A stretch of DNA of 36,682 bases from a virus, in the IMG/VR virus record IMGVR_UViG_3300024503_000616, positions 1 to 36,682 of that record; one strand, 5' to 3'. Of this stretch, positions 191 through 36,276 are shown piece by piece. The notes beneath the pieces were generated by a model. That model saw nothing but the letters and a program-made list of their open reading frames with translations. It made no database searches and had not been told where the DNA came from. Positions within the stretch are counted from its first letter, which is position 1; each line of letters begins with the position of its first letter. A program made the position numbers and the translations under genes.

Positions 191-635
191 GTTCAATTTT
201 CCAACAGAAAGGCTAAACCCGATGAATCAGGAAGAACTAGAGAATGGTTCAGAAGAAGTTTCAGGATTAGGATTCGTAAAGTCTGGAGAATTGTTTAAGG
301 CAAAGCTAGAGATTCCGCAATCGATTGTTCATCGTGCAGTGTGCGATGGAATGGGATGGTCACTTGGTTCGTACCCCAAAAGAGTAATTGAAATCACTGG
401 GCCGTATGACGATGTGTTCAGGGTTAAGGTTGAGTCCGAGTTTGATTCATTAACCCTAAAATCTATTCTTGTGGAAACGGTTCACGATATGCCTAAAGAA
501 CTGTTTCAGAACATCATCAAATACGGCTTGAAGACCATCATGGGTAATGTCGTGGATGTGAGTATTTACAGGGTATGGACGCATTCACAGGCAATGGAAT
601 TAACAATAACTTTTGAAGCGGAGGAGCAGGAATGA
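189..635 (+). CDS. Hypothetical protein, first gene of the DNA-metabolism module
   Basis: 148 residues, not recognised. It is a soluble, mildly acidic protein with no signal peptide or membrane segment. Residues 1-40 are polar and probably flexible; the rest alternates short strands and helices and ends in an acidic tail (FEAEEQE). The start follows a duplicated AAGGAAGG ribosome site. Its stop overlaps the next start as ATGA (632-635), so it is translationally coupled to the Sak4-like ATPase and may act in the same recombination or replication step. That role is inferred from position only. Confidence 0.75.
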   Translation: MFNFPTERLNPMNQEELENGSEEVSGLGFVKSGELFKAKLEIPQSIVHRAVCDGMGWSLGSYPKRVIEITGPYDDVFRVKVESEFDSLTLKSILVETVHDMPKELFQNIIKYGLKTIMGNVVDVSIYRVWTHSQAMELTITFEAEEQE

Positions 636-1387
636 AAATTGAGAAACCACAGGGATTCAGTTCAGTGAACAAACCAAAGGCGGTTATTTTCGGTGCGGAA
701 GGTTCTGGAAAAAGTACGTTAGCATCAAAACTGCAAAAGGTTCTGTTCATAAATGTCGAAGATGGTATTGCAGGATTGGATGTAGATAGCGTAAAGATTT
801 CTTCTTGGTCAGAGTTTGTTACTCTGATCAAGGAGATAGCAAAGGAAACGATTGGTTCGGAATCATTTCCTTACCATCATATTGCCATCGATTCTTTGAC
901 CGCCTTGGAACGATTGCTTCATCAGCATATTTGTTCACAATCTGGATCAAGTAGTATCGTATTGGCTTGTGGAGGTTATGGAAAAGGATTGGTTGAATCG
1001 GTGACACAGATGTCATTGCTCATGAACAATCTGCTGTCGAAGAAAGACCTTGGTGTTTGGTTTCTTTGCCATAGTGCGGTGAAGTCGGTGAATGATCCTA
1101 CTAGAGGAGAGTATGCTTCTTTTGTGGTTCGTGCCGATAAAGCCATGGCAGAGTGGGTAACGAGTTGGGCAGACCTCGTAGGGTTCATTGAAATTGATCT
1201 GATGGTATCAGACGATGGTAAGCCAGTAATTAAAAAGGAGGGCAATGAGGTACGGAGAACTATCACGGTTACTCCGAGGTCAGGACTGACTGCAAAGAGC
1301 AGGATTCCCGGCTTAAGTGGCGTGATGAATGTTGACAATTTTGTTTCTAAAGTTAATGAAATTTTTTCACAGAAAGCGAGTAAGTAA
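632..1387 (+). CDS. Sak4-like RecA-fold ATPase (AAA_24 type)
   Basis: 251 residues. A Walker A motif, GAEGSGKST, lies at about 21-29 and a Walker B-like strand, HHIAIDSLTALE, at about 82-93. These are followed by a GGYGKG segment and a FLCHS sensor-like strand, the order seen in phage AAA_24/Sak4 proteins. Sak4 proteins are small RecA-core ATPases that promote strand annealing or exchange in phage recombination, usually with a single-stranded-DNA-binding partner. A DUF669-type protein follows after 2 nt, which is the usual partner arrangement. The length fits the family. No DNA-binding loops of full RecA are visible. Family call is firm; the exact biochemical role is inferred. Confidence 0.87.
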   Translation: MKIEKPQGFSSVNKPKAVIFGAEGSGKSTLASKLQKVLFINVEDGIAGLDVDSVKISSWSEFVTLIKEIAKETIGSESFPYHHIAIDSLTALERLLHQHICSQSGSSSIVLACGGYGKGLVESVTQMSLLMNNLLSKKDLGVWFLCHSAVKSVNDPTRGEYASFVVRADKAMAEWVTSWADLVGFIEIDLMVSDDGKPVIKKEGNEVRRTITVTPRSGLTAKSRIPGLSGVMNVDNFVSKVNEIFSQKASK

Positions 1388-1389
1388 CC

Positions 1390-1773
1390 ATGAGTGACGA
1401 ATTTTTCACAAAGGAAGATGCTAAGGTTCTGGAACACGACAGGCTTTTCCCTGAAGGTATTTATCCGATTACCATCACTGGCTGTTCAACCAACGACAAG
1501 GATGGCAAGAAGTGGATAACCATCGAGGCCACTGTTTGTGAGGGTGAATTTGAAGGCAGAAAGAAATGGATTAACCTTTATAAGAACAATGGGCATCCAA
1601 ACGAAAAGTTGTGGAAGTGGCATCTTGGAATCATTGCCACTCTGGACAAAGCCCTTGGTCTGGAAAGGATGACCCCAGATTCGGTCAAAGGCCAGTCGTG
1701 TCGCATGGAGATCACCCATAGCACCAGAAACGATAACACCTACGACAATGTTAAAAGATTCCTTCCATTGTAG
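1390..1773 (+). CDS. DUF669-type protein, probable ssDNA-binding partner (copy 1)
   Basis: 127 residues. It resembles phage DUF669 proteins, small OB-fold-like proteins that sit next to AAA_24 ATPases and are thought to act as single-stranded-DNA-binding proteins. Visible signs are the N-terminal PEGIYPITITGC strand, the DGKKWITIEATVCEGEFEGRK hairpin, and the C-terminal region (MEITHSTRNDNTYDNVKRF) in which the target contact and final strand usually lie. It begins 2 nt after the ATPase stop. A second protein of the same style lies at 2460-2846, so this locus has two copies. Function is from family and context, not proven here. Confidence 0.75.
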   Translation: MSDEFFTKEDAKVLEHDRLFPEGIYPITITGCSTNDKDGKKWITIEATVCEGEFEGRKKWINLYKNNGHPNEKLWKWHLGIIATLDKALGLERMTPDSVKGQSCRMEITHSTRNDNTYDNVKRFLPL

Positions 1774-1819
1774 TAAAGTTGCCTACGGAAATTGTCGATG
1801 ATAATTCCGGAGGTGACCT

Positions 1820-1978
1820 ATGCGATGGATTGTGTTAAACCTTGTCTTCGCTTGTGGCTTGACCGGATGTCAGGCCACAAGAAATTCTCTAGAAACAGGA
1901 GCATCAACAACAGCGTTGAATGGCTCTCCAGTCATAGAGAAAGTTGATCTAAACATCAAATACCGAATGGAGTGGTAG
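1820..1978 (+). CDS. Small predicted lipoprotein (52 aa)
   Basis: An ATG at 1820 preceded by GGAGGTGA (1809-1816) opens a 52-residue frame. Residues 1-17 form a short signal peptide with one basic residue near the start, a hydrophobic core (IVLNLVFACGLTG) and a lipobox LTGC ending at Cys17. The mature part is small and polar. Such a product would be exported and lipid-anchored. Phage lipoproteins of this size are known as superinfection-exclusion factors or outer-membrane spanins (Rz1-like), but the mature part lacks the proline richness of Rz1. Its location inside a DNA-metabolism operon is odd. The strong ribosome site and clean lipobox argue that it is real. Confidence 0.65.
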   Translation: MRWIVLNLVFACGLTGCQATRNSLETGASTTALNGSPVIEKVDLNIKYRMEW

Positions 1979-1980
1979 TC

Positions 1981-2460
1981 ATGAAGCAGGATGCTATTTT
2001 GGATTTAGTTCAGTTCAGGAAAATTGCCAGAGAAGTATTTGGAACATTCTCTGAAAAGATCGAATCAAGGGGTTTCTGGAAAACAAGAATCTGTGCGGTT
2101 GTGGACACCGATTGGACTCAGGAAAAAGATGAATTAGTGGCAAGGCACTGGACTACTGATTCAGAACCAGTGGTGGAAAAGTTTCATTTCCCACCCACTT
2201 GGTCGAACAAAGAATCGTGGAAAAATGCCTTTGGCACTGATTACCCAGAATGTGCAGCAGACGGGCTGGATATAGCTCTGTGGACAGCTAAAACGCCATC
2301 GAGGATAATCATAGAAGAAGCAAACGGCATTCGCATACTGAGATCAGTCACCACTGATCCTGTACTGAAAGTGGATCAAAATAGGATACGCCCAGCAGTG
2401 CCACCAATCAAACGCAGGAAGCCTGTAGATAATACCAAGTCTATGTTTGGAGACGCATAA
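1981..2460 (+). CDS. Hypothetical protein in the replication operon
   Basis: 159 residues from ATG 1981, with GGAG (1969-1972) 8 nt upstream. A GTG at 1972 in the same frame would overlap the lipoprotein stop and is less likely. The protein is not recognised. It has a basic C-terminus (about residues 130-150, rich in Arg, Lys and Pro: RPAVPPIKRRKP), which suggests nucleic-acid contact. The middle is Trp-rich (DTDWTQEKDE, RHWTTDSEP, PPTWSNKESWKNAF). The stop overlaps the next ATG by one base (TAATG), so it is coupled to the second DUF669-like gene. Confidence 0.7.
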   Translation: MKQDAILDLVQFRKIAREVFGTFSEKIESRGFWKTRICAVVDTDWTQEKDELVARHWTTDSEPVVEKFHFPPTWSNKESWKNAFGTDYPECAADGLDIALWTAKTPSRIIIEEANGIRILRSVTTDPVLKVDQNRIRPAVPPIKRRKPVDNTKSMFGDA

Positions 2461-2846
2461 TGTCTAATGATGATTTGTTATATGATCCAAGTGATATACA
2501 ACCAATTCCTTCAGGAACCTACTCAGCCCATGTGTCGAGGGCTGAGTTGGTTACCTCAAAAGCTGGCAACGAATATGTATCCTGCGAGATACAGATTTTG
2601 CAGGGCAGCCAACAGGGGAAAGTGGTCAGCGTCAATTTTCACATCTATGCCAAAGATCAGAGATTCCGTCAGGACTCCAGAAGAAAACTGACAAAGCTTT
2701 TGTCCTGCTGTGGCATAGAGGATGTGACTAAGACTAGCTTGCAATTGCTTTACGAAAAACCGTTTTTAGTTGAGATCGGTGAGACTAAGGACAATTTTGG
2801 AGACACCAATAATGTCCTTGGGTTTGAAAAATTAAGGGGAAGATAG
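2460..2846 (+). CDS. DUF669-type protein, probable ssDNA-binding partner (copy 2)
   Basis: 128 residues with the same architecture as the protein at 1390-1773: an N-terminal IPSGTYSAHVSRAEL strand, a KAGNEYVSCEIQILQGSQQGK hairpin, a central helix pair, and a C-terminal FLVEIGETKDNFGDTNNVLGF segment typical of DUF669. Sequence identity between the two copies looks low, so they are old paralogs or separate acquisitions rather than a recent duplication. It overlaps the previous stop (TAATG) and the next start (TAGTG), placing it tightly between an unknown gene and the helicase, which it may serve. Confidence 0.75.
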   Translation: MSNDDLLYDPSDIQPIPSGTYSAHVSRAELVTSKAGNEYVSCEIQILQGSQQGKVVSVNFHIYAKDQRFRQDSRRKLTKLLSCCGIEDVTKTSLQLLYEKPFLVEIGETKDNFGDTNNVLGFEKLRGR

Positions 2847-4504
2847 TGAACCTACGCAAATACCAGCAGGATGCAGTCGATTCGGTTTTTAAGTTTAACA
2901 CTGATTGTCCGGGACAATCATCAGTCGTTGTCATTCCAACTGGAGGTGGCAAGACCATGGTGATGGCTGAGATAATCAGAAGGTCTTTTTTCAGTAATTC
3001 AAACTGTCGTGGAATGCTGATAAGCCATGTAAAGGAACTCTTGGAACAGTCTCATAAGACTTGTTCCAAGATTTCGGCAAGCACCAATCTTCCTGTAAAC
3101 AATATTGGTGTCTATTCGGCCAAGATGAAAAAGAAAGAGATCAAGCCATTAACCATTGCATCCATTCAGTCTGTACACAGAAAGGCAGATGATTTTGGTG
3201 CATTGGATTTCATCATGGTGGATGAGGCTCACCTGATTTCACCTAATGACGAGACGATGTACCAACGATTTATTTCGGCAGCAAAAATTCGCAACAGCAA
3301 ATTATTTGTTGTTGGACTAACGGCAACACCATACAGATTGCAAAGCGGTTTGATCTTTGGAGAACAGAAGTTCTTCAGCACCTGTTGCTACGGCATTGGT
3401 GTGAAAGAATTGATTTCACAGGGCTATCTTTCGCCATTGGTAACCAAAGGCATTGGTTCACCAGACCTGAGAAAGGTAAAGGTTCGCGGGGGAGAATTTT
3501 TGGCATCCTCACTGAATTCCGCTGTATCCAATGAATCCATTGTCAGCGACGGTGTTCAAGAGGCCATAGCAAAGTCACAGGGTAGAAACAGCATCCTTGT
3601 GTTTGCGACAAGCATTGCCCACGGGGAAATGATTCTGAACAAACTTCGTGACCTTGGTGAAAACAGCAGTCACATGATCACTGGTGAAACTGATACCTTA
3701 ATCAGGGATTTAAGGATTAACCAGTTTCGATCAAAACAACTACGATGGCTTGTGAATGTCTCTGTGCTTACCACCGGATTTGATGCCCCTAATGTGGATT
3801 GTGTAGTGGTCATGAGGCCAACCATGAGTCGTGGACTTTGGTATCAGATGGTTGGCAGAGGTTTCCGCATGGCAGAAAACAAAAAGGACTGCCTAGTTTT
3901 AGACTTTGGTGAAAACGCAATCAGGCTTGGTTGCATTGATGATATCGATGTAGATGCCAATGGGATTGAACTTCCACCAAAAAAATATAAACAATGCCCC
4001 TCCTGCAAACTTGTTCACAAGATTAGCCAAGTAACTTGCCCAAGTTGTGGATACTTCAAGCCAAAGGCAGAAGAACCAAAGGAACTGAAAGTATCTGCGA
4101 CCCAGACAGAAGGCGAAATCATTGGTCTTAGAACCGCAGTAAAGGAATATGAAATTGTTTCATCGCAGTATACCGTATATCGTAAAAATCCTATTGCAGA
4201 CCCATGCATCAGGGAATCCCATGAAACATCCATGGGCATGGTAATAACCTGCTATAGATCGCTTAAAAAGGGCTTAGAGTATCCATTGATGAAATGGTTA
4301 AAGGAAGTCAATGCACCGAATATACCACCAAATCCATGGCTTATAAACAAAGGCTTGTTGCAAAGCAGTGCCTATCTGGATATGATTGCCAAACCTAATT
4401 ACATCAAGGCACACAAGAATGAAAAGGGGTTCTGGACAATCGTCCAGTATACATTTCAAAGAACGATTGAATTAAAAGAATTTCTCACAATTGTTAAAAA
4501 CTAA
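2846..4504 (+). CDS. Superfamily 2 DEAH-type helicase with zinc ribbon
   Basis: 552 residues starting at a GTG that overlaps the previous TAG by one base. Motifs in order: Q-like N-terminus (LRKYQQDAV), Walker A PTGGGKT at 31-37, DEAH at 126-129, TAT at 159-161, a second RecA-like domain (LVFATSIAHGEMI near 250-263, TTGFDAPNVD near 309-318), and motif VI QMVGRGFR at 334-341. A CX2C-X10-CX2C zinc ribbon follows at 384-401 and then a C-terminal region of about 150 residues. This is the layout of phage UvsW/ResIII-like ATP-dependent helicases that unwind or remodel replication and recombination intermediates. The family is firm; substrate is inferred from the neighbouring Sak4, DUF669 and primase genes. 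Confidence 0.9.
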   Translation: MNLRKYQQDAVDSVFKFNTDCPGQSSVVVIPTGGGKTMVMAEIIRRSFFSNSNCRGMLISHVKELLEQSHKTCSKISASTNLPVNNIGVYSAKMKKKEIKPLTIASIQSVHRKADDFGALDFIMVDEAHLISPNDETMYQRFISAAKIRNSKLFVVGLTATPYRLQSGLIFGEQKFFSTCCYGIGVKELISQGYLSPLVTKGIGSPDLRKVKVRGGEFLASSLNSAVSNESIVSDGVQEAIAKSQGRNSILVFATSIAHGEMILNKLRDLGENSSHMITGETDTLIRDLRINQFRSKQLRWLVNVSVLTTGFDAPNVDCVVVMRPTMSRGLWYQMVGRGFRMAENKKDCLVLDFGENAIRLGCIDDIDVDANGIELPPKKYKQCPSCKLVHKISQVTCPSCGYFKPKAEEPKELKVSATQTEGEIIGLRTAVKEYEIVSSQYTVYRKNPIADPCIRESHETSMGMVITCYRSLKKGLEYPLMKWLKEVNAPNIPPNPWLINKGLLQSSAYLDMIAKPNYIKAHKNEKGFWTIVQYTFQRTIELKEFLTIVKN

Positions 4505-4540: not shown

Positions 4541-4573
4541 TTACGACAGGGAGGAAGGCTAAACCTGTCGTAA
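4541..4573 (+). promoter_or_regulatory. Perfect 10-bp hairpin carrying a GAGGAAGG loop
   Basis: TTACGACAGG (4541-4550) pairs with CCTGTCGTAA (4564-4573). The 13-nt loop exposes GAGGAAGG, a Shine-Dalgarno-like sequence, and the last base of the stem is the A of an ATG at 4573. The true primase start is more likely at 4621, so the element would lie in a short leader just before it. Confidence 0.5.
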
Positions 4574-4620
4574 TGAAAATTTTATCCGTACATCTGAAAA
4601 ATCGCAAAGGGGAAGTGGCG

Positions 4621-7107
4621 ATGGCAGAAGAAATTAAGCAGGAAGCTTTAAAGATTCGCTCTCAGGGATTGAGCGTGTTTTCCACAAAAGTTGACAAGAC
4701 TCCAGCCATAAGAAAACAGAACAGAATAGTGGAACTTAGGAGCAAACTGCAAACTACGGCAGAGATGGAGATTGATTTCAGCCATCCACAAGTTGCCGGT
4801 ATTGCAGTTAACTGTGGCCCAATACCAGATCAGAACAGGGATTTGGAATGTCTGGACATTGATTGCCCAAATCTTTCCAAAACATTCTTGGATGAACTGT
4901 GTGCATCAACACCAGAGCTTGGAGAGAAGCTTAAGGGATGCGTGGAGAAGACTCCATCCGAAGGTCTGCACATTTTTTATTACCTTCCATTGGGTAAATC
5001 AAAATGCCGTGATCTGGCAATGATGTCACCTGAAAGAAACAAAAACTGGCTTACCGAGGCAAGGGCCAGAGGTTCAACAAAGATGGTTGCACCACCTTTG
5101 ATTGAAACCAAGGGTGCGGGTGGATATGTCGTTGGATTCTGCTCCAAGGCGATAAGCAAAATCGATGGAACAATAAAGTCCTACGAAATGCTTCATGGTA
5201 ATGTGGAATCCATTCCAACATTGTCAGCACAGGAACATGATTTTCTTTTAGCGTTTGCCGGAAGTTATGACGAAAGATCATTAAAGAAATTCGTCACGGC
5301 AAATCCTGAACCTATTCAGAAATACGAATCGGATAAAAGGGCAGCACTGGAACAGTGGAGAGCAGAAACTCCATGGAATGAAATCCTTCCAGAATCGTAC
5401 AAGGTTGTTGAGGTGAAGCCAGACTATTACATTTGCTGGCATCCAGACTCATCAGACCTACAAACCCCCAATGCGGTGTGTGGTGCAAAAGCCGGAGGCT
5501 TGGATCGTTACTGGTCATTTTCCCCGAATGACTGGCGACTCCCCGCAAACACACCGCTTACTAAAGATTATGTCTTCTGTGCCAGTCGTGGATGGGTCAC
5601 AGGCAGCAAGGAATGGAAAACATTCTATGCCACGGTGTTTGCAAAATATGCACCGAAATTTGAAGTGGAACCCATCAATATGGAAAGGATTGATGAGTTC
5701 TTTGAAGAGGCAACCAAGGGCAAGCCAAAAAACAAAATCAAGGTGAAGAAGTACCTTGATGTGATTCCCGATGAATCCATTGATTTTCCGGGGTGGATCA
5801 ACACCTATGTTGACTACTGCATGAGAAATGCACTGTATCCAGAAAAAAGAATTGCTGTGGCTTCTGCCCTCGGAATGTTTTCCGCACTCATCGGAAGGGC
5901 TGTAATGGGGCCGGGGGAACTTAAGCTCAACTTATACATGGTCGTCCTAGGTCTTACGGCAAATGGAAAGGATTATCCAAGAAAGCTCAATGCCAGAATT
6001 TGCATGGAAATTGACGAGGCAGATTTATTGTTAACAAAGGTTGGTTCACGCGAAGGTCTTGAAGAAAAGGTCATGCAGGGGCCAAAATTTCTCATGGCTG
6101 ATGAAGGTGCTTTTGATCTAGAGAAAATGAAATCCGGTGACATCAGATATACAGATGTCATGGGATCATTGCTTGAACTTTTTACGAGTAATTACATTAA
6201 AAGAAGAGCAAGGGCTGGAGAGGATGATGATGGCAATTACATCAGGTATCCGTTTCTCTCCGTTATGACATCTTCAACCCCTGAAGAATACTTCAAGGCA
6301 CTGTCGCCGAAATTTATCAGGTCAGGATTTTACAATCGTTTGCTGATTCTACAAGCATCACTCAGGGGAAGAATGAATGTCAGGGCGATGACAACCACAG
6401 AGCCAATTCCGGAGTTTCTTATAGAGACGGCAGCAAAGCTTGTTGCCATGAATGGGAACCTTGTTCCGGGTGATGCCAGAAGAGAATTGAATGACATGGG
6501 AGTTGACCAAATGCAGAATGAATCCTTGAACAAGATAGAGAACGATGCAAGGATCATGCAGCTTTCCGAAGATGCTTTGCAGTATTTTCAGGAAGAGGTG
6601 TGGAAGAATGATGATGCTTATTCGGAATACCAGAAAAGAGGTGAAGAAGAAAAGGCAGCATCCTGTGCAAGACTTCCAGAAATGGCACTCAAGGTTTCCT
6701 GTCTCTGGGAACTCAGTAGAGACATCAAGGCTACGGAACTTTCACTGGAAGCTGTAATGGCTGGAATGCGTTTTGTGAAGGAAGTAAATTCAAGGCAAAC
6801 CGCAAACACCGTCATGATTTCGGACACAAAGTTTGGAGAAATCACCGATAAGCTTATCAAGCTTGTTGAAACCTCTGGAGTCGAAATTGAACCCGGAGTA
6901 AGTGGTATCAAAATGACTGAGGCGAAAAAGTTTCTTCGGAAGTCTGTACACAACGGGCAGTCTGTCGATGACGCAATTCGTTATCTACAAGACTGTGGGG
7001 AAATTAAGGTCAAGAGGGCATCTTCAGGAAACACCATGTACTTGATTATAAACGACCAACAACCTTCTCAATCCCAACCCTTGGAACAGCCAAAAGTGAC
7101 AAGTTGA
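4621..7107 (+). CDS. Primase-polymerase (AEP) fused to a DUF3987-like helicase domain
   Basis: 828 residues from ATG 4621, chosen because GGGGAAG lies about 7-8 nt upstream and because the AEP fold begins at once (EALKIRSQGLSVF). An in-frame ATG at 4573 would add 16 residues. The N-terminal prim-pol domain has the metal-binding LDIDC (Asp79, Asp81), an SEGLH motif near 113-117 and ETKGAGGYVVGF near 162-173. A central DUF3987-like ATPase follows, with a Walker A-like GLTANGKD near 444-451, where Asp replaces the usual Ser/Thr, and a Walker B-like FLMADEG near 489-495. The C-terminus looks like a winged helix. It should start DNA synthesis and unwind the template during phage replication. The end overlaps the convergent terminase gene by 62 bp. 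Confidence 0.87.
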   Translation: MAEEIKQEALKIRSQGLSVFSTKVDKTPAIRKQNRIVELRSKLQTTAEMEIDFSHPQVAGIAVNCGPIPDQNRDLECLDIDCPNLSKTFLDELCASTPELGEKLKGCVEKTPSEGLHIFYYLPLGKSKCRDLAMMSPERNKNWLTEARARGSTKMVAPPLIETKGAGGYVVGFCSKAISKIDGTIKSYEMLHGNVESIPTLSAQEHDFLLAFAGSYDERSLKKFVTANPEPIQKYESDKRAALEQWRAETPWNEILPESYKVVEVKPDYYICWHPDSSDLQTPNAVCGAKAGGLDRYWSFSPNDWRLPANTPLTKDYVFCASRGWVTGSKEWKTFYATVFAKYAPKFEVEPINMERIDEFFEEATKGKPKNKIKVKKYLDVIPDESIDFPGWINTYVDYCMRNALYPEKRIAVASALGMFSALIGRAVMGPGELKLNLYMVVLGLTANGKDYPRKLNARICMEIDEADLLLTKVGSREGLEEKVMQGPKFLMADEGAFDLEKMKSGDIRYTDVMGSLLELFTSNYIKRRARAGEDDDGNYIRYPFLSVMTSSTPEEYFKALSPKFIRSGFYNRLLILQASLRGRMNVRAMTTTEPIPEFLIETAAKLVAMNGNLVPGDARRELNDMGVDQMQNESLNKIENDARIMQLSEDALQYFQEEVWKNDDAYSEYQKRGEEEKAASCARLPEMALKVSCLWELSRDIKATELSLEAVMAGMRFVKEVNSRQTANTVMISDTKFGEITDKLIKLVETSGVEIEPGVSGIKMTEAKKFLRKSVHNGQSVDDAIRYLQDCGEIKVKRASSGNTMYLIINDQQPSQSQPLEQPKVTS

Positions 7108-14889: not shown

Positions 14890-15114
14890 TTAACCGCAGC
14901 AGGAACCGCCACGGAGTTTGAAACGAAGCTTTCCACCACGGAAAACTTTCTCTTCCTGAACTTCTACTACTGGCTTTACTACAGGCTTTTCCTGCTTAGT
15001 TTCCACTTGCTGTGCAACTCCACACTGGCCGTTAGCACAGCTTGATCCACCTCGTTTGAGAGGCAGATCAACTACTTGGGAACTCAAAGCCACCGCTAAA
15101 ATGAAACTGGTCAT
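14890..15114 (-). CDS. Small secreted Cys/Gly-rich protein
   Basis: 74 residues from ATG 15114, with AGGAGGAAG upstream; a longer in-frame extension lacks a ribosome site. Residues 1-13 (MTSFILAVALSSQ) form a short hydrophobic export signal. Then come GGSSCANGQCG, a Gln/Lys/Val-rich linker (QQVETKQEKPVVKPVVEVQEEK) and a basic Gly-rich end with GGSCCG. The CxNGxCG motif and style are like small secreted proteins common in planctomycete genomes. Four cysteines could form disulfides outside the cytoplasm. Function unknown; it is followed by another small gene and preceded by the papain-like protease, hinting at a late role in the envelope. Confidence 0.65.
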   Translation of the reverse strand: MTSFILAVALSSQVVDLPLKRGGSSCANGQCGVAQQVETKQEKPVVKPVVEVQEEKVFRGGKLRFKLRGGSCCG

Positions 15115-15148
15115 GATGCTTCCTCCTAAAGAAATTTGACCAAAGATA

Positions 15149-16120
15149 TTATAGCGTCCAATCGATCTTTCGGGCAGGGTAACCGTCAAAATTACTGAAA
15201 GCAAATACTTCCTCGTTACAAATCTTGTCCATGTCCGAAGCTTTCATCCAGTAACTTCCCTTGGGTTCGCCATAATTGCCAGGAGGTGTTCCATGAGCAT
15301 TCCCCCAAGAATTCTGGATCAAAAATATCAGGCCAAATTCAGGATGATCGGTGTAACCCAAGCAAGATTGCTGATGACCCCATGCATCGGACTTCTTGGC
15401 CAATTGAACCGATGGTGTACCTGAAGGTTGAACTTTCAGGGAATTAAATCCCCACCATCCGGAAGCAATAGTCACAGGATACCCGTTTCGCAGGGCAGCT
15501 TTTACTTCTTTGGAATTACTCAACTGACTGGTGGAATTGACTCGGAACTTGTTGGCCACGGAAAACAAGTCTCTAGGCGGTTTGTCTCCATTCGACCATT
15601 TGTATTCGACATCAGCACCAAAAGTCCAAGAACCATCGTTCTGTTTTACTGGTTGTGGAAGATCAGACTCAATTGGAGGAACACCATCAATACGGCAAGA
15701 TTCAGCCATGGACGATCCAAAAGAACCGTCACCAGTACCATGTAAACCACCACGCTTACGAGATTGCCCATAATTAAACAAAAAGAACGGTAGTTTCCAT
15801 TGTTCATAGGTTTGGCCTTGTGTGACAATTTCCACGGCCTGTAGGGTCGCCATAACGGCTAATGCACCATGTCCTACACATGAGCCGGTCTTTTGATCCC
15901 ATGGGAAAAACTCATATCCACAGGCTTTGTTGACCACCTTGTATAGTAAAGCCTCTTTTACATCGGCATCCTCTCCAGTGATCTCAAAAGGCTTTAAGGA
16001 TGACCTGAAAGCCTGTCGTTGTACCTCTGGAAGATCACTGATTGGCTTCCAGCCAAAGTTCCAATTGTTGATGAAATTGTTGTGATGCTGCCTTCCACCC
16101 CACTTGATGTAATCAATCAT
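15149..16120 (-). CDS. Papain-like cysteine protease (C1-like)
   Basis: 323 residues. The papain signature is complete: Gln76 and Cys81 in DQKTGSCVGHG, His249 in DAWGHQQSC, and Asn270 in LIQNSWG. GHQQSCLGY...GLIFLIQNSWG is the standard His-to-Asn spacing of C1 peptidases. No signal peptide or propeptide is evident, so it would act inside the host cell or be released at lysis. It lies a few genes after the holin-like protein in a block with no recognisable endolysin. It could cut peptide bonds in cell-wall proteins, process virion proteins, or attack host targets. Start overlaps the previous stop (ATGA). Catalytic triad is seen; substrate is unknown. Confidence 0.82.
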   Translation of the reverse strand: MIDYIKWGGRQHHNNFINNWNFGWKPISDLPEVQRQAFRSSLKPFEITGEDADVKEALLYKVVNKACGYEFFPWDQKTGSCVGHGALAVMATLQAVEIVTQGQTYEQWKLPFFLFNYGQSRKRGGLHGTGDGSFGSSMAESCRIDGVPPIESDLPQPVKQNDGSWTFGADVEYKWSNGDKPPRDLFSVANKFRVNSTSQLSNSKEVKAALRNGYPVTIASGWWGFNSLKVQPSGTPSVQLAKKSDAWGHQQSCLGYTDHPEFGLIFLIQNSWGNAHGTPPGNYGEPKGSYWMKASDMDKICNEEVFAFSNFDGYPARKIDWTL

Positions 16121-16764
16121 TTCAGTTCCTTTGCTACCTGTGTGAATACAGAAGTCATCAAATCTCTAGTTGCCTTATCAAGTTCCTTGTCAGCATCCTG
16201 GGGCAACTTGGAATTAAGTCTCTTACCAATGACTGCCCTTAGATTGGAAAGTTCATCAGGACGGAATTGCTTGTTAATTGCCACCTTAGCTGCACGGAAC
16301 ACATCACCAACGGCTTTATACTCATCTTTTTGTGATTCTTTGGCAAGTTCCTCGTAGAACTGTGCAAGCCATTTTACAGCCTCCTTGTCTTCTTTTTTTG
16401 CTGCCTCAGAAATGTCCGATGCAGTAGGAGTCGGACTTGGAGGAGTATCAGGATTGTCTGGATTTGGAGGAAGAGCATTTCCAATAAGAACCGTACACAT
16501 TGCTGCGTCTGAGGGGCCAGTCTGATCCGATGTGTACGCATAGATTCTAAATCGTCCCTCCGGCCCAGTCACCACTAGCGTTTTAGTGTCCTTGAGCAGT
16601 TCCACAGGGAACATATTGAGTCCAGCATCTGGACACAACCATTTCACGGTACTGCCACTAGTAGTGGCAGGAACCGTAATAAAAGCATTTGGTTGGCCAT
16701 TGATTTGCTTTGGCAACTCAATGGTCGGTGCATGAAAAATCGCAAGCAGAATGAGTAAATTCAT
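16117..16764 (-). CDS. Secreted two-domain protein with Pro-rich linker
   Basis: 215 residues. Residues 1-12 form a short hydrophobic export signal. Residues about 18-96 look like a small beta-sandwich (STVKWLCPDAGLNMFP, TLVVTGPEGRFRIYAYTSD, AAMCTVLIG), similar in style to Ig-like domains of planctomycete secreted proteins. Residues about 99-114 are a Pro/Asp/Thr linker, and residues 116-215 are helical and charged. It is coupled to the HNH gene upstream and to the papain-like protease downstream by ATGA overlaps. A role in the cell envelope at lysis or entry is possible. No catalytic motif was seen. Confidence 0.72.
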   Translation of the reverse strand: MNLLILLAIFHAPTIELPKQINGQPNAFITVPATTSGSTVKWLCPDAGLNMFPVELLKDTKTLVVTGPEGRFRIYAYTSDQTGPSDAAMCTVLIGNALPPNPDNPDTPPSPTPTASDISEAAKKEDKEAVKWLAQFYEELAKESQKDEYKAVGDVFRAAKVAINKQFRPDELSNLRAVIGKRLNSKLPQDADKELDKATRDLMTSVFTQVAKELK

Positions 16765-17006
16765 GGTCGTCTTCGTATCCTTTCCTTTTGTCCTTGAGCA
16801 TCATACTCCACACTTGGATTCCAACTTGTCCAACTGTCCAGATGCCCCAATAGGAAGTGGCATCGTTTACATAGGGTTAGGAGATTGGTTGGTTCATACT
16901 CTAATGACCTATCCAATGAATATGGATAGATATGATGCACTTCCAATGCTTCCTTTTTATAGCATCCAGCACATTGAGGATTTTTCTCAATATGCTCTTT
17001 CCGCAC
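16761..17006 (-). CDS. HNH endonuclease
   Basis: 81 residues from GTG 17006. The HNH fold is clear: CAGC (zinc ligands), LEVHHIYPYS (catalytic His pair), NLLTLCKRCH (Asn and second zinc pair). HNH proteins of this small type often help terminase in HK97-like packaging, but those are encoded beside terminase; this one lies among lysis-type genes. The conserved-looking segment extends upstream of GTG as IGRGWKWPQ, and the frame is open to about 17105 without ATG. An ATA at 17031-17033 overlaps the previous TAG in the pattern ATAG, so the true start may be non-standard. GGAAG 9 nt upstream supports GTG 17006. Confidence 0.82.
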   Translation of the reverse strand: MRKEHIEKNPQCAGCYKKEALEVHHIYPYSLDRSLEYEPTNLLTLCKRCHFLLGHLDSWTSWNPSVEYDAQGQKERIRRRP

Positions 17007-17029
17007 TTGGGGCCACTTCCAGCCCCTGC

Positions 17030-17347
17030 CTATAAAAAAGCGGAAATCAATATCTTCAAGGCGGTTTTTAGGATCAAGGCCCAGGGCACGATACCCAGGG
17101 TGACCTCATTAGCGTGGAACTTACTTTGTTCCAAAGCCTGATCCAACAGGCTGGCAAAGTCTTCCAAACCAATCTCACGACCTTCAAAAATCGTCTTATC
17201 TTCAGGCAATGCCTGTGCAGCAGCATAGCCAACAATGTTCCAAAGTGCATTGGCAAAAGTGCGGTTGTTCACATCTTCCTTGCCACGAATCTTGTTGATG
17301 CATAACAGAATAGCATCGGTTGGCATCGAATCAGGAAAATCAATCAT
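17030..17347 (-). CDS. Hypothetical protein with hydrophobic C-terminal helix
   Basis: 105 residues, coupled to the holin-like gene (TAATG). The N-terminal 80 residues are predicted helical and soluble. The last 20 (GIVPWALILKTALKILISAF) are hydrophobic and could be a membrane-associated helix. Unknown family. Its place between a holin-like and an HNH gene, and the hydrophobic tail, would allow a role in lysis such as an antiholin, but nothing in the sequence proves it. Confidence 0.65.
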   Translation of the reverse strand: MIDFPDSMPTDAILLCINKIRGKEDVNNRTFANALWNIVGYAAAQALPEDKTIFEGREIGLEDFASLLDQALEQSKFHANEVTLGIVPWALILKTALKILISAFL

Positions 17348-17619
17348 TAATCACCCTTTCTGTGTAGTGCTTCCAGTTCCTTCGTCTGTCGCAGAATTTC
17401 TGTCAGTATTTTCATGGAATCGGTCTGAGCCTTGGTCACTTCTCCGATTCCTGATTCCAGTCTGTCGATGAACAACATATGTCTCTGGTGCAGTGGTAGG
17501 AGAATATTAACACCAACCCAACTGCCACCCCGATACACGCACCAGACAAGAAAAATAAGAAAGGTGAGAGTGACACCAAATCTTTCTATCAAGCTGACGA
17601 AATCAATATCGGCGATCAT
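17347..17619 (-). CDS. Holin-like protein with one membrane segment and coiled coil
   Basis: 90 residues. One strong transmembrane segment at about 13-33 (VTLTFLIFLVWCVYRGGSWVG), followed by an amphipathic, coiled-coil-like stretch to the end (HMLFIDRLESGIGEVTKAQTDS...ILRQTKELEALHRKGD). Small single-span proteins with a charged cytoplasmic helix at this genome position are common phage holins or holin-associated proteins. Start overlaps the fibre-chaperone stop (ATGA). The membrane topology is well supported; the holin role is inferred from size and position. Confidence 0.65.
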   Translation of the reverse strand: MIADIDFVSLIERFGVTLTFLIFLVWCVYRGGSWVGVNILLPLHQRHMLFIDRLESGIGEVTKAQTDSMKILTEILRQTKELEALHRKGD

Positions 17620-18125: not shown

Positions 18126-21100
18126 TTAGCACCAAAATGAACCTTCCAATATTGCCTGAATATATGTTGTTCCAGATGTTCCATATTCCAACATTGTGCA
18201 ATAATGATAACCTAGGCAACTTCCACTTCGTATAGTGTATGCTCTTCCAGCACGGCCAGTCATATCCACGCTGTCATATCCTGGTGTACCACCATCAAAA
18301 GCAGCACCTTGACTAGCATAACCACCAGATGACGCACAACTAAAATTAACAACAGTATTCCTGTCCAAACCATTAACAAAATGGACAGACATGGCAGAGT
18401 CGTTATTCCAATTTCTCCATGAAGCAGTAGTGTAAGGATGCCCTGTATATGCGTAGGTTGGATATGTATTTTTGTACAAGAGTCTTTCAACAGGATTATT
18501 CATATTCCAAACAAAACGCTTGGCTAAAGAATCCTCGGTGGTGGTAGTCGATGTGGTTCTAAATGTTCCAAGATATCGTCTTGTGGTCGCAGAACTTTTA
18601 ACATAAACACCATTTGTTAGCGTAATAGCATCTGTCCTTGCGGTGTCACTTGTCCATGCTGCCGAAAGTTCGAGTGTCAGCGTTCCTGCATTATTATAAA
18701 TGAAAACATCATAATTTTTCCCAGAAGTTAAAGTTCCTAAAGCCAACGATCTTTCTGTAAATGTGTAAGTCGCCCAATTAGTTCCGTCATAAAGACTTAT
18801 ACGATCACCATTGTAAGGTGTATAGTAAATCGTAGTTGCACTTGTTACATCCGAAGTAGTTACAGGTGTTCCGCTAGTAAGGGTAAGTCTACCACCGGAA
18901 AACAAACCTTGGTTTACCCATGTCGGACTTGATGCACCAGCACTTGTAAGCACTTGTCCAGATGTTCCAGCAGCAGTCAAAGCTAAAGCCGAAGCTGTGC
19001 TATATGCTACCGCTCCATTTACAGCAGTTAAGTTCGCATTAGTTCCACCGTATGCCAGAGCAATTTGACCAGAAGCAATATCTGAGGCAACAACCGTATC
19101 CCATGCTGGTGCAGCACCGTTTGTTCCTGACCCAGTTTGACGGAGAAACTTTTTGGTAGTGGTGGTATTTGGACTCAAAAGAGTTGTCGTGTTGCTGTTA
19201 GACTGATATGGTATCGATCCAAGTAGCGTTGTGCTATTTCCACCAGCAAGACTGGTAATGTAATTTGTCCAACTTAGGTTTCCAGAACCGTCCGTTTTTA
19301 AGACATAGTTATTTGTGCCAGCAGTTGTTGGAAGAGTTAAAGTATAATTTGTTGATATAGTCGCCGGAGCTTGAATTGCAGCATAATTGCTTGAATCTGC
19401 ATCAGCAAAACGCACATCGGCCTGTGCATTTAAATAAAGATTTCCGGTGGCATCAAAATAACTGTATACAGTTGTGCCAAGGTAATCCCGAAGTTCCAAC
19501 AGTGGATATGTCTGTCCGTTAGCTGCAAAAATTCCAAAAACACCAACGGCACCATTTGCCGAATATAAAGCCAACGCATCATATGCGGAAGAACCATACG
19601 AAAAATTGGAAGTCGCAGTAAAATTACCTGATCCATCGTTGTACTGAATGTCTCCATTTGAACCGGCAGCACTTGCACCACCAGCGGTTGTCCATGACAG
19701 TGTTCCTGTACCATTTGTAGACAGTACCTGGCCTGAAGTGCCGTCTGTAGAAGGATAGGTCAAACTATTGATGACGGTGGTTCCAGAAACGGTCAACGCA
19801 CTAAGAGTTCCAACTGTGGTGATATTTGACGATCCAGCCCATGTGCTTAAAGCCGTGTTTTCCACGCTGGACAATCCCACATCCGTCTTAGTGACGGTAT
19901 CCCAAGCAGGAGCAGCAGATACCGTGCCTGTGCCGGTTTGACGCAAGAATTTGCGTGTAGTGGTTGTATTTCCGGAAAGTTTGGCCAATGTATTGCTGGC
20001 CGAAGAATATAGCGTATCGCCCAATGTGTAGGTGGTTTGTCCGGTTCCACCCTTGGTTGCACCTACGGTGGCAAGAGTCGTTGTAATCGCCGTACTTCCA
20101 GAACCTGTTACATCACCCGATAAAGTAATGGTTTGGTTCGCCGTCAAATAAGTGCTAGTGTCCAGCGAGAATGTTCCAGATGCGGTCATTTTTACAAAAG
20201 ATGCGGAAACATAAGTCAGGCCGGAAAGAGAGGTCAGGTTTGTGGATGATGCCTGACCACCTAAGCCTGCCAATGTATAGGTTGGAACATTTAATGTGTT
20301 GGAAACCAGTGTGGCTGATCCACTGGAACCCGTTGTGGTTAATGAAGTGATACGGTTTGTATAGGCCGTATCCCAGTTGGTCTGACTTGAAGTTGTTGGG
20401 ATGGAATATCCAGCGGTAAAGCTGAAAACACCAGTTGTGTTGGTGTATGTCAATCCAGTAGCTGTTGAAGAAAGATCAGTTAATTTGATTCCACCAAGCC
20501 CAGCCAGAGTATATGTTGGAACATTCAGTGTATTTGAAACTAATGTCGCAGAACCACTGGAACCAGTAGTGGTTAAGCTGGTTATTCGATTGGCGTATGC
20601 CGTATCCCAATTGGTCTGAGAGGCAGAGGTTGGAAGTGCATATCCTGTATCCATAGACAAAGCTATGGTTCCACTTCCTGTGATTGGAGAATTGGTCACC
20701 TTCATGCCGGTTGGTGCCGAAAGTCCCACGGAAGTGACAGTTCCTGATCCACCACCGGAAGCATTGATCGTAAAATTAGGATAGGTTCCTGTGATTGTGA
20801 TATTGGTTCCAGAGTTCAAAACTACTGTCTGATCGGGGGAAGAGTTAGTTATCACTCCAGTGGATGAACTGTAGGAAATTCCAGCTCCAGCAGACACCGA
20901 TGCTCTTGATCTTGCATCGGTATAATACAGGTTAGTTCCCTCAGAAATGCTGCTGGTGGTTCCTGCGACATTTTCCCAAAGTTTGGTGGTCGAGTTGTAA
21001 CGAAGGATATTGTTGGGTGCAACGCTGGTAATCGATACATCGTGGATTTCATCCAGTTCGTATCCGTTCTGGATTTTCACCTCAACCACACCTTGGGTTG

Positions 21101-23039
21101 GATGACTGCGAACTACGATGCCAACATACACAAGGTGGCTTGGTGCTGCCGGCTTGGTCGTTGTCCATGCTCCAGCAGTGGTTGGGGACAGATACAGTTG
21201 AGTCCCTGCGGAATAGGATTGTGTATCAATGTCGGTTAGTCTTCCAGAAACAACCACATATCCATTGGACTGATCGGATGTATTACTCTGAATAATGCCA
21301 TATGTCTGTGCCGAATTTGTATCGTTGTTGGCTTGGGCCTTGGTGACCGTTGGCAAATTTCCTTGGCCACCATTGATGTAAACAACCGTGCCTTTTGTCA
21401 GAGTTGCCCCAGTTGAATTATAAATTTCTGTGACGAGATTTAATGCCTGATCTATTGTGGTTGGGAAGGTCTTGAGACTTCCATCTCCGGTCACATACTC
21501 CGAACCTTTTCCAGAGAAATTAACACCTATATCTCCACTGGTGGTAATCGGTGTATTGGTGATCGTCAAAGCAGAAGCAGTTGTGGATATGCCAACGGAA
21601 GTTACAGTTCCGCTTCCAGAAGTACCAGTGTAATCAATCGTAAAGTTCGGATAAGTCCCTGTGACGGATATATCCGTTCCACCAGTCAATGAAACAACTT
21701 GATCTGGAGAGTCGTTGGTAATTACACCAGTTGTATTGTCATAACTAATACCAGTTCCTGCGGATAACGCTTTTCTGGCATCGGAATCTGTGTATTGGGT
21801 GATCGTGCAATCAATGGTGAAGTCAGGATAAGTCCCAGTTACGGAGATTCCATTTCCAGAAGTTAGTGAAACAATCTGGTCAGGGGCCGTATTATTGATC
21901 GTATAATCGGGTGCAGTTCCGGTCAGGGATATATCCGTTCCGGCAGTGATGGAATTTACCGGATAACTGATAGCAACATTCTGAATTCCAGTCACTATGC
22001 CTTTATCATTTACCGTCACTTCTGCCACATTGGAACCGTTACCATATGCCCCAGCAGTAATGGATTGAGTATTCAATTCCAATCCAATAAATCCAGAAGT
22101 TGTTATGGGTGAATTAGTGACCGTCAAATCTTGAGAAGAAACGCCAACACTGTAGACAGTACCTCCTGAGCCACCACCTCCAGTGGCATAGCCATCAAAC
22201 AGCAAATGCACGATATCATTGCTGTCACGCATATAACCTTTGCGATCTGCCACATTGATGGCAAACTCATTGATTTCCAAATCGGTATATGCTGGAACAG
22301 AACCGGCAATATAGGATCGTTTTGGCTTAACAGGAATTGGAGGGTTTGGGTTGCCAGCATTTGGTTGAAAAAACAACTGATTGGAATTAACCGCATTTAA
22401 GGCAAGAATAGTTGATTCAAAATGCAGATAAAATAATCCGTTACCAGTAATAATTAGATTAGTAAAAGTGGCAACGCCATTGGTTGTAGATACGGTATCA
22501 GTTCCAGTTAATGTTGCTGTTCCGGATAGTACAACCAAAGAAACTTGCACATCAGTTTCATAATTTGTTAACACATTACCAAATTGGTCTTTGATTCCAA
22601 CTGATGGTTGTGGACTCAATAGACTTCCAGAAGACACTAATCCCGGCTGATTAATGACATACAAACTGTTTGGAACAGATGGCGGAGGTGACCCACCATC
22701 GTCATAATACGCACTACCATTCATTGATGCCGGTGATTCATCATATGTGTCTATTTGGATAGATATTGTTGATCCAGCAGAAACATTTAATGCAGAATTG
22801 AAAAACCAAATGCTAGTTGAATTCTGAAATATTCCAATTCCAGCCTGAATTATTCTTGCCTCGTTTTCTTGATTTGCATATCCAGACAAATCCAAGTAAC
22901 AAACACCATCAGTTGATGCATAAAAATTTATGTCTGCTGTCAAATTACCTGTAGCAGAAAGATAAATAACGAATGGATCGTTTTGTGTCCCTGATCCTGA
23001 ATATGCAATTCCACTTGCAGAAGTTACCGTAAATGCCAT
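18126..23039 (-). CDS. Giant long tail fibre (1637 aa) with repeated shaft
   Basis: The start is ATG 23039 in a TAATG overlap with the previous gene. Residues 1-115 are a beta domain. Residues about 123-235 resemble an invasin-type Ig-like domain (QPSVGIKDQFGNVLTNYETDVQVSL). Near 262-280 there is an ELAINxxDRKGYMRDS-type fibre connector. A Gly/Ser/Thr-rich shaft follows, with repeated GTVTSVG, TYPNFTI, NLNVPTYTLAGLGG and KFLRQTGxG...AAPAWDTV units. The last 250 or so residues (GGRLTLTSGTPVTTSDVTS...YYTPYNGDRISLYDG) are a conserved phage fibre tip seen in many phages, the likely receptor-binding part. Attachment to host is the expected role. Confidence 0.85.
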   Translation of the reverse strand: MAFTVTSASGIAYSGSGTQNDPFVIYLSATGNLTADINFYASTDGVCYLDLSGYANQENEARIIQAGIGIFQNSTSIWFFNSALNVSAGSTISIQIDTYDESPASMNGSAYYDDGGSPPPSVPNSLYVINQPGLVSSGSLLSPQPSVGIKDQFGNVLTNYETDVQVSLVVLSGTATLTGTDTVSTTNGVATFTNLIITGNGLFYLHFESTILALNAVNSNQLFFQPNAGNPNPPIPVKPKRSYIAGSVPAYTDLEINEFAINVADRKGYMRDSNDIVHLLFDGYATGGGGSGGTVYSVGVSSQDLTVTNSPITTSGFIGLELNTQSITAGAYGNGSNVAEVTVNDKGIVTGIQNVAISYPVNSITAGTDISLTGTAPDYTINNTAPDQIVSLTSGNGISVTGTYPDFTIDCTITQYTDSDARKALSAGTGISYDNTTGVITNDSPDQVVSLTGGTDISVTGTYPNFTIDYTGTSGSGTVTSVGISTTASALTITNTPITTSGDIGVNFSGKGSEYVTGDGSLKTFPTTIDQALNLVTEIYNSTGATLTKGTVVYINGGQGNLPTVTKAQANNDTNSAQTYGIIQSNTSDQSNGYVVVSGRLTDIDTQSYSAGTQLYLSPTTAGAWTTTKPAAPSHLVYVGIVVRSHPTQGVVEVKIQNGYELDEIHDVSITSVAPNNILRYNSTTKLWENVAGTTSSISEGTNLYYTDARSRASVSAGAGISYSSSTGVITNSSPDQTVVLNSGTNITITGTYPNFTINASGGGSGTVTSVGLSAPTGMKVTNSPITGSGTIALSMDTGYALPTSASQTNWDTAYANRITSLTTTGSSGSATLVSNTLNVPTYTLAGLGGIKLTDLSSTATGLTYTNTTGVFSFTAGYSIPTTSSQTNWDTAYTNRITSLTTTGSSGSATLVSNTLNVPTYTLAGLGGQASSTNLTSLSGLTYVSASFVKMTASGTFSLDTSTYLTANQTITLSGDVTGSGSTAITTTLATVGATKGGTGQTTYTLGDTLYSSASNTLAKLSGNTTTTRKFLRQTGTGTVSAAPAWDTVTKTDVGLSSVENTALSTWAGSSNITTVGTLSALTVSGTTVINSLTYPSTDGTSGQVLSTNGTGTLSWTTAGGASAAGSNGDIQYNDGSGNFTATSNFSYGSSAYDALALYSANGAVGVFGIFAANGQTYPLLELRDYLGTTVYSYFDATGNLYLNAQADVRFADADSSNYAAIQAPATISTNYTLTLPTTAGTNNYVLKTDGSGNLSWTNYITSLAGGNSTTLLGSIPYQSNSNTTTLLSPNTTTTKKFLRQTGSGTNGAAPAWDTVVASDIASGQIALAYGGTNANLTAVNGAVAYSTASALALTAAGTSGQVLTSAGASSPTWVNQGLFSGGRLTLTSGTPVTTSDVTSATTIYYTPYNGDRISLYDGTNWATYTFTERSLALGTLTSGKNYDVFIYNNAGTLTLELSAAWTSDTARTDAITLTNGVYVKSSATTRRYLGTFRTTSTTTTEDSLAKRFVWNMNNPVERLLYKNTYPTYAYTGHPYTTASWRNWNNDSAMSVHFVNGLDRNTVVNFSCASSGGYASQGAAFDGGTPGYDSVDMTGRAGRAYTIRSGSCLGYHYCTMLEYGTSGTTYIQAILEGSFWC
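20262..20619 (-). repeat. Duplicated fibre-shaft unit
   Basis: Two copies of a roughly 40-codon unit (TNWDTAY.NRITSLTTTG through VSNTLNVPTYTLAGLGG), near residues 800-843 and 875-920 of the giant fibre, are nearly identical in protein but differ at many third codon positions. A second pair (KFLRQTG...AAPAWDTV) lies near 19895-19955 and 19095-19155. Confidence 0.7.
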
Positions 23040-30412: not shown

Positions 30413-30729
30413 TACATCACCTTCGAGGACTGAAGGACATAATAACTATCCATCGCCACCGCATCGATGGAGTTCACATAGAACTCTTCACCACCGGATG
30501 TAATCTTGCAGTTAATCTCTGGAACCCATGGATGCACATTCGTCTTGAATATCAGCCACCTGGTAATCGTTTCCAGTTTGGCGACTCCATTCTGATCCAT
30601 GTAAGCCAGTGTTCCCTGCCTTCGGAAGGCATAGTTTGTGGACACCTGTGAACCACCCGGATTGACCAGAACGGCGGTTTCTGGGTTATCCATGATCTGG
30701 TAGTTCTGTGATAGATCAATAGTTGGCAT
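30412..30729 (-). CDS. Head-tail connector (stopper-like) protein
   Basis: 105 residues from ATG 30729, overlapping the previous stop by one base (TAATG); an in-frame extension to 30819 overlaps the previous gene and is rejected. The sequence is beta-rich: TAVLVNPGGSQVSTNYAFRRQGT, LETITRWLIFKTNVHPWVPEINCKITSGGEEFYVNSIDAVAMDSYYVL. The end (small barrel closing with YVLQSSKV) is like head-closure proteins that plug the connector. Order in the array fits a stopper between adaptor and tail terminator. Confidence 0.6.
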   Translation of the reverse strand: MPTIDLSQNYQIMDNPETAVLVNPGGSQVSTNYAFRRQGTLAYMDQNGVAKLETITRWLIFKTNVHPWVPEINCKITSGGEEFYVNSIDAVAMDSYYVLQSSKVM

Positions 30730-30941
30730 TACATGAACTGGGTTCTGAATTCCTGTGGGGCAACATAGGTCAACAGCTTGTTCACCTGTGTGATATGTTG
30801 CAGTGTCTGCTGTCTCCATTCCGTTCTCGAAACGGCAACGCCCTCCCAGCTATAGGAAGGTTGAGGGTTTGCGGAGTCGGCAACTAATGCGTTGATGTAG
30901 TTGTCCCGAATCGTGATCAGGTTTTCTGCTGGTGTTGGCAT
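30729..30941 (-). CDS. Small head-tail adaptor-like protein
   Basis: 70 residues from ATG 30941, with AAGGTG 5 nt upstream; GTG 30947 is an alternative. A two-helix protein with a central turn: LITIRDNYINALVAD, PQPSYSWEGVAVSRTEWRQQTLQHITQVNKLL. The PxPSYSxxGxxVSxxEW hinge is common in small head-tail joining proteins. It directly follows the capsid terminator and starts the connector block. Confidence 0.62.
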   Translation of the reverse strand: MPTPAENLITIRDNYINALVADSANPQPSYSWEGVAVSRTEWRQQTLQHITQVNKLLTYVAPQEFRTQFM

Positions 30942-30955
30942 AGTCACCTTGGGTT

Positions 30956-30988
30956 AAAAATGCCGAGGTGGGAAAATCCCACCCCGGC
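30956..30988 (-). terminator. Intrinsic terminator after the capsid gene
   Basis: On the - strand a 12-bp GC-rich stem (30977-30988 with 30962-30973, one G-T wobble) around a 3-nt loop is followed by ATTTTTAA. It lies between the capsid stop (31000) and the next ribosome site, so it should reduce expression of the connector and tail genes relative to capsid. Confidence 0.78.
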
Positions 30989-30999
30989 GTTTGTGGTTA

Positions 31000-32223: not shown

Positions 32224-32247
32224 GTTCATTCTCCTTAATGAAAGAGG

Positions 32248-32718
32248 TTAGCGAGCCACAGCGTTCAAGGTGGACAACAACTGGAACTTGACTGTGCCGG
32301 TTCCAGAGAGAGCTTCGACTACGCTGCCGATAGCTAAATCTTTGGTCGCAACCTTCACCAGAGACTGGGGAAGAAGTGCGTTTCCAGAATTCGAGGGGCC
32401 AACAAAGTCGCCCACAACGAGTGCGGTTCCGGTGTATGCACCTTGGTAGATACCGGAGCAATCGATGCGGATTTCATTGTCGTTGCTATTTCCATAGACC
32501 TTGGCGATGTCTGCCCTTTTCAACTGGCCGGACACTCCGAGGAATGCAGCAGCAAAGTTTTCTTGGGTAGTCGCCAGATTGGTGTCCCAAGTGAAGTCCG
32601 CTGCGGAAACAGCGTTTCCACTTACGATAGCCACTAGGTCACCAACCTGAATCGCTTTTGCAGTGGCAACAGGAGCCACCACAGGATTGGTCGTGCCGTA
32701 GTTGTAAGTAATTGCCAT
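32248..32718 (-). CDS. Probable capsid decoration protein
   Basis: 156 residues, beta-rich with Ala/Val/Gly strands: VVAPVATAKAIQVGDLVAIVSGNAVSAADF, ENFAAAFLGVSGQLKRADI, IRIDCSGIYQGAY, LVVGDFVGPSNSG, VATKDLAIGSVVEALSGTGTVKFQLL. This layout is like small phage proteins (DUF2190-like) next to capsid genes that stabilise the shell. Start has GGAG (32730 region) upstream. Its location, between protease/scaffold and capsid, fits. Function inferred from position and fold style. Confidence 0.7.
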   Translation of the reverse strand: MAITYNYGTTNPVVAPVATAKAIQVGDLVAIVSGNAVSAADFTWDTNLATTQENFAAAFLGVSGQLKRADIAKVYGNSNDNEIRIDCSGIYQGAYTGTALVVGDFVGPSNSGNALLPQSLVKVATKDLAIGSVVEALSGTGTVKFQLLSTLNAVAR

Positions 32719-32742
32719 GGTTCTTATCTCCTTATGATGGCT

Positions 32743-33945: not shown

Positions 33946-33951
33946 TTAGAT

Positions 33952-33981
33952 AAAATACCCATGAAGGTTTAAAAATGTCAA
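33952..33981 (-). promoter_or_regulatory. TTGACA/TATTTT promoter before the protease gene
   Basis: On the - strand TTGACA (33981-33976), an 18-nt spacer and TATTTT (33957-33952) lie just upstream of ATG 33945. The gap from -10 to ATG is 6 nt, so the start of transcription would fall at or near the start codon. No Shine-Dalgarno sequence precedes this ATG, so the mRNA could be leaderless. Confidence 0.55.
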
Positions 33982-33983
33982 AA

Positions 33984-35885: not shown

Positions 35886-35915
35886 TTAAGACCTTTAGTG
35901 TGCTAAATGTATTTC

Positions 35916-36206: not shown

Positions 36207-36236
36207 GGTAAATGCCCTACGGGTGAAGATACACAA

Positions 36237-36265: not shown

Positions 36266-36276
36266 GAAAAATTACC

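Follow-up and report, generated by a model that had tools for sequence, protein, structure and literature searches.

A conserved 52-residue lipoprotein gene in the DNA-metabolism operon of a phage lineage, with a possible role in superinfection exclusion

Genes and features of the locus

The window, i.e., the whole stretch of DNA that was analysed, is an IMG/VR virus record of 36,682 bases. Its plus strand carries a short open reading frame that begins at ATG 1820 and ends at the stop codon TAG (1976–1978), with a product of 52 residues, MRWIVLNLVFACGLTGCQATRNSLETGASTTALNGSPVIEKVDLNIKYRMEW. The features of this region, in order along the plus strand, are:

632–1387 (+), Sak4-like ATPase, identified by family searches
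1390–1773 (+), first DUF669/SSB-like gene, the upstream neighbour (phrog_378, E 9.6e-10; PF05037)
1809–1816 (+), Shine-Dalgarno sequence GGAGGTGA, 3 nt upstream of the ATG, with its GGAGG 6 nt from it; kept in relatives
1820–1978 (+), 52-aa lipoprotein gene; frame conserved in 40 further contigs, under purifying selection
1820–1867 (+), signal peptide of 16 aa with the lipobox LTG-C, from an alignment of 20 sequences
1868–1975 (+), mature lipoprotein of 36 aa from the lipid cysteine Cys17; same length in 20 of 20 distinct complete variants
1940–1975 (+), amphipathic beta-strand pattern in the final 12 residues, consensus K-[VM]-[DN]-[LV]-[NDS]-[ILF]-K-[FYL]-[RK]-x-E-W
1981–2460 (+), partner gene of 159 aa, its ATG (1981) 2 nt past the lipoprotein stop; no family match
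2460–2846 (+), second DUF669/SSB-like gene, the downstream flank of the cassette formed by lipoprotein and partner (PF05037, E 5.5e-11)
2846–4504 (+), helicase, identified by family searches
4573–7107 (+), primase, identified by family searches

An earlier note on this DNA had described the surroundings as a DNA-metabolism operon, and this description holds, given the Sak4-like ATPase, the two DUF669/SSB-like proteins, the helicase and the primase that lie around the lipoprotein gene; the opposite strand carries those for terminase, portal and tail. Judging from the operon context alone, the lipoprotein would be expressed early. A scan of the operon for sigma-70 promoters gave no excess above shuffled sequences. 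Another frame that overlaps the gene (1792–1947) was dropped as a candidate, since it is not conserved in more distant relatives.

Conservation of the gene and selection on its product

When ATG or GTG open reading frames of 40–150 aa with both a Shine-Dalgarno sequence and a lipobox signal peptide were searched for, the frame at 1820–1978 was the only match in the window. Three other carrier genomes gave a single match each, which was its ortholog; no match was obtained in two sister genomes, nor in 100 dinucleotide-preserving shuffles. The earlier note had pointed to a strong Shine-Dalgarno site, and indeed the 8-nt match upstream of this gene is the longest among the 43 predicted genes of the window, and that of the ortholog is likewise the longest of all predicted genes in the three other genomes (4/4 tested). 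For G008 the crude gene caller had assigned the site to an overlapping frame; the site precedes the lipoprotein ATG.

The compact signal peptide and the LTGC lipobox that had been read from the window are also well founded. In an alignment of 20 sequences, the signal peptides have Arg or Lys as the basic residue of the n-region and a hydrophobic core throughout, and Leu-3, Gly-1 and Cys are invariant (20/20). The signal-peptide sequence differs between groups, with hydrophobicity and the L-x-G-C motif retained; thus, the charged n-region, the hydrophobic h-region and the lipobox [LVI][ASTVI][GAS]C of bacterial-type lipoproteins are all present. Searching IMG/VR with the protein, and then with profiles, recovered 8, 23 and finally 40 further contigs encoding the lipoprotein, so that the frame, whose conservation in relatives had been suggested as a check, is in fact conserved. 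A lack of selection on the protein would, according to the note, also have refuted the gene; instead, the mature part, with 16 invariant positions among the 20 distinct complete variants, gave a pooled pN/pS of 0.235 (0.14–0.43 per pair; Fisher p as low as 1.9e-15, in one pair), i.e., purifying selection. In most comparisons of distant relatives, the protein identity of the lipoprotein is at least as high as that of the helicase and the partner. These comparisons of identity and selection use the rows for lipoprotein, Sak4 and helicase and, for the partner, those of the correct size; mispaired rows for the two SSB-like proteins and the partner (ORF lengths of 690–830 aa) were left out.

A chance reading frame, or an element acting at the DNA level, could be considered given the shortness of the gene and the high DNA identity, even at silent sites, between the window and the relative L029. 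Nevertheless, silent sites are saturated in many of the compared pairs while the protein is under selection, the mature length is constant and the shuffles gave nothing; we therefore hold this explanation, already refuted by the conservation, to be extremely improbable. The frame, the ribosome-binding site, the lipobox, the conserved cysteine and the selection on the protein make it nearly certain that 1820–1978 is a real lipoprotein gene. A gene of 52 residues would probably be skipped by annotation; this conserved family of phage lipoproteins is too short for the length limits usually set for genes, and its ribosome site is the strongest in its genomes.

Distribution, linkage to the partner and recombination

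The carrier lineage consists of freshwater-type phages, whose early region has no counterpart, at the DNA level, among phage GenBank records. The lipoprotein gene is consistently placed between the two DUF669/SSB-like genes, and in all the loci that have an intact copy and enough downstream sequence (37/37) the partner starts 1–3 nt after the lipoprotein stop. In a sister clade (e.g., L017–L019 and L021–L025) the first DUF669 gene directly abuts the second, which means that the lipoprotein and its partner are jointly absent; profile searches of sister records of 42–45 kb detected no copy of the lipoprotein elsewhere. These sister records have the late region in common with the carriers. The earlier note had overlooked the coupled partner and its joint absence from this clade. 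The Sak4 tree separates carriers from non-carriers, with the sole exception of L026, a contig that stops short of the site. One locus, L059, has an internally deleted and frameshifted copy of the lipoprotein gene, or an assembly error.

The invariable pairing with so short a gap, together with the joint absence from the sister clade, could be explained by a joint function of the two proteins, as in a two-gene module (toxin/antidote or defence/counter-defence) with the lipoprotein as its membrane-acting part. However, the partner has neither a signal peptide nor a transmembrane segment, which puts the two proteins in different compartments; PADLOC finds nothing, and the pairing may merely reflect a shared unit of transcription and translation. 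For these reasons, we consider such a module improbable. The C-terminus of the partner shows a conserved [LM]FG after Q/S/T-x-x, like the bacterial sliding-clamp binding motif, and the partner is possibly a clamp-interacting replication protein. No relative of it was detected among phage GenBank records, nor in 294 genomes of the phylum of a Gemmataceae MAG (described below), in a search made without a positive control.

A comparison of the window with L029, a 46.5-kb contig, suggests that local recombination has occurred at the lipoprotein gene, which is 88% identical between them (98% in the first 60 nt), against 61% and 57% DNA identity in the flanks. Among 124 diverged locus pairs, the median excess of gene identity over the flanks was just 0.02. 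Since the genomes are mosaic elsewhere too, the peak of identity is better seen as gene exchange than as a special mobility of this gene. For instance, positions 20818–22540 (part of a large tail protein) and 30710–36388 (portal and capsid) of the window are 82–86% identical to G008, and the early region is 67% identical. In L018, L021, L022, L023 and L025 other accessory genes separate the second DUF669 gene from the helicase, including in L023 and L025 one for a radical-SAM QueE-like protein; gene turnover seems to occur in this early region.

The C-terminal strand and placement in the envelope

The lipobox indicates a function in the envelope. The glutamine at +2, the lipobox and the chain of 36 residues suggest an outer-membrane lipoprotein that faces the periplasm, if the host follows the sorting rules of enterobacteria, from which its own may differ. 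In every complete variant the final 12 residues alternate between hydrophobic and polar and end in Trp, and their hydrophobic moment reaches 0.91 at 180 degrees (column-shuffle p 0.0045), against 0.18 at 100 degrees. The C-terminus is thus amphipathic and lacks a transmembrane segment. The lipid cysteine is the only cysteine of the mature chain in 20/20 variants, and the chain accordingly has no internal disulphide. AlphaFold2 modelled the C-terminus as a helix and not as a strand, with a pLDDT of 61 (49 for the partner), and at this low confidence both models are too poor for a fold search. Sequence searches of Pfam, PHROG, PADLOC and PDB with the lipoprotein gave nothing beyond a generic resemblance of the signal peptide.

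The amphipathic terminal strand with its Trp resembles the C-terminal strand of outer-membrane barrels and, together with the strong ribosome-binding site, would also fit another kind of envelope factor, one that blocks or remodels an outer-membrane machine of the host (e.g., barrel assembly or LPS transport) or that protects the envelope during infection. Against this, the third-last residue is Lys, Arg or Met, mostly Lys or Arg, and not consistently hydrophobic; hence the usual barrel signal is present in its Trp and its alternation and departs from the expected pattern at this position. We regard this alternative as rather unlikely.

Comparison with known phage lipoproteins

Small lipoproteins are known from other phages. 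Llp of T5 and Cor of T1/phi80 are superinfection-exclusion lipoproteins that block FhuA and for which a periplasmic placement at the outer membrane is likewise expected; Llp acts from the periplasm, where it binds to FhuA, alters its outer loops and blocks it (PMC9586334), and among the references of that paper is a work on a T5 lipoprotein "expressed early during infection". Rtp45 of phage Rtp, a tiny exclusion lipoprotein of about 6 kDa that acts on LptDE, joins LptD in a beta-sheet and pushes a loop aside, which keeps the receptor-binding protein from binding (PMC12685063); the terminal strand described here could pair in a similar way. In contrast with Llp, Cor and Rtp45, which have an intramolecular disulphide (Cys30–Cys38 in Rtp45), the present protein has none; its mature chain has 36 residues versus 61 in Llp, and no similarity to Llp or Cor was detected with PHROG profiles or in the phage collection, nor any sequence similarity to Rtp45. 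Moreover, the exclusion lipoproteins of coliphages are usually encoded beside the receptor-binding or tail-tip gene, whereas this gene lies between the DUF669/SSB-like genes, and the predicted tail genes are more than 10 kb away. Given the differences in similarity, disulphide and gene position, we do not place it in the Llp/Cor family, although it may work like the members of that family. In Gram-positive bacteria, Ltp of the temperate Streptococcus thermophilus phage TP-J34 is a surface lipoprotein that confers superinfection exclusion (PMC3952083); no sequence relation to it was found.

Short outer-membrane lipoproteins also occur among the o-spanins (lambda Rz1, T4 PseT.2), and the gene could encode an o-spanin or a small lysis lipoprotein moved into the replication operon, with its inner-membrane partner elsewhere, e.g., at 17347–17619. 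In favour of this are its size, its lipobox and the absence of any other predicted lipoprotein from the genome, as well as the fact that spanins may sit apart from holin and endolysin, outside the lysis cassette, as in T4 (PMC6139136). In addition, 14 of 20 family members match phrog_812 ("Rz-like spanin") weakly and colinearly (E 0.0059 to 0.14). This match was set aside, however, for the same profile matches 10 of 14 unrelated control genomes, Gram-positives and archaea included, and the match looks generic. No i-spanin is adjacent and the genomic block is the wrong one: the neighbouring genes, the partner among them, encode no transmembrane segment, and the sole candidate with a transmembrane segment and a coiled coil is 17347–17619. 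The sister phages retain the late region and the transmembrane protein without any predicted lipoprotein. The protein shows no proline-rich or Cys-linked features and, lacking a C-terminal transmembrane segment, it is not a u-spanin. A search of plasmids for small lysis lipoproteins gave chance-level matches only. An o-spanin or lysis lipoprotein is, in our view, an unlikely if serious alternative.

A possible role in superinfection exclusion

The earlier note had proposed superinfection exclusion or another early envelope function, and the present results support this in part. The reading that we favour, with a rough probability of 0.4, is superinfection exclusion in which a strand would be added to the barrel of a receptor, in analogy to Llp or Rtp45. 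We infer a sequence of events in which the lipoprotein would be made early in infection and would sit in the outer membrane on its periplasmic side; the amphipathic strand at its C-terminus, with the final Trp, would line up with a strand in an outer-membrane protein of the host, and the receptor or entry site would be altered in such a way that further phages could not adsorb or inject. The fact that this gene has the longest Shine-Dalgarno match and encodes the only lipoprotein of each carrier genome fits a stoichiometric blocker. Its presence in one Sak4 clade and its absence from a sister clade with the same late genes fit a dispensable gene, the broken copy in L059 fits non-essentiality and, together with the strong ribosome site and the exchange between phages, these features fit a gene for competition. 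On the other hand, the lack of a PHROG family match above the level of generic signal peptides, the absence of a second cysteine from the mature chain, the location away from tail and receptor-binding genes, the very short mature chain and the helical, low-confidence AlphaFold2 model count against exclusion.

If exclusion is the function, the protein would be among the smallest of its kind, lipoprotein-based exclusion would extend past the coliphage and lactic-phage models, and the short strand might give a clue to the receptor that an uncultured group of phages uses. A more specific and speculative proposal, which we consider doubtful, is that of a previously undescribed putative family of phage lipoproteins of 36 residues, which would be expressed early, with translation coupled to that of a replication-associated protein specific to the lineage, and whose terminal beta-strand would be inserted into a host outer-membrane barrel or assembly machine; such a protein would be a minimal blocker of a receptor or of assembly in uncultured aquatic phages, with hosts possibly in the Planctomycetota.

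The late block and the host

A pattern scan of cellular genomes did not detect the lipoprotein, and a search of 392 genomes from the phylum to which the Gemmataceae MAG belongs gave no convincing lipoprotein and six weak matches, of which the four that were readable are signal-peptide matches in larger proteins; the other two are L119 and L124. A conserved late block on the minus strand of the window (14890–17619) encodes a 90-aa protein with a transmembrane segment and a coiled coil, a 105-aa protein with a C-terminal transmembrane segment, an HNH protein, a 215-aa protein with a hydrophobic N-terminus, a 74-aa protein with GGSSC/SCCG motifs, and a possible papain-like peptidase of 323 aa. 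The lysis genes are likely to be in this block, although neither an endolysin nor a holin could be recognised.

The late-region protein encoded at 16117–16764 has relatives on three MAG contigs. Those on a small Flavipsychrobacter-binned contig (52%) and on a Rhodobacteraceae-binned contig (32%) look as if they belong to phage contigs that were binned with the MAG, and the third (31%) is on a Gemmataceae contig that also bears apparently ordinary chromosomal genes, which hints at a host in the Planctomycetota. When the 392 genomes of that phylum were searched with this protein, a single genome matched, namely the Gemmataceae MAG itself. Close relatives of the late proteins of the window phage are present on L112 (CAMDNC010000148.1), an 8.5-kb contig of a Flavipsychrobacter MAG that probably comes from a phage and was binned together with the Flavipsychrobacter genome.
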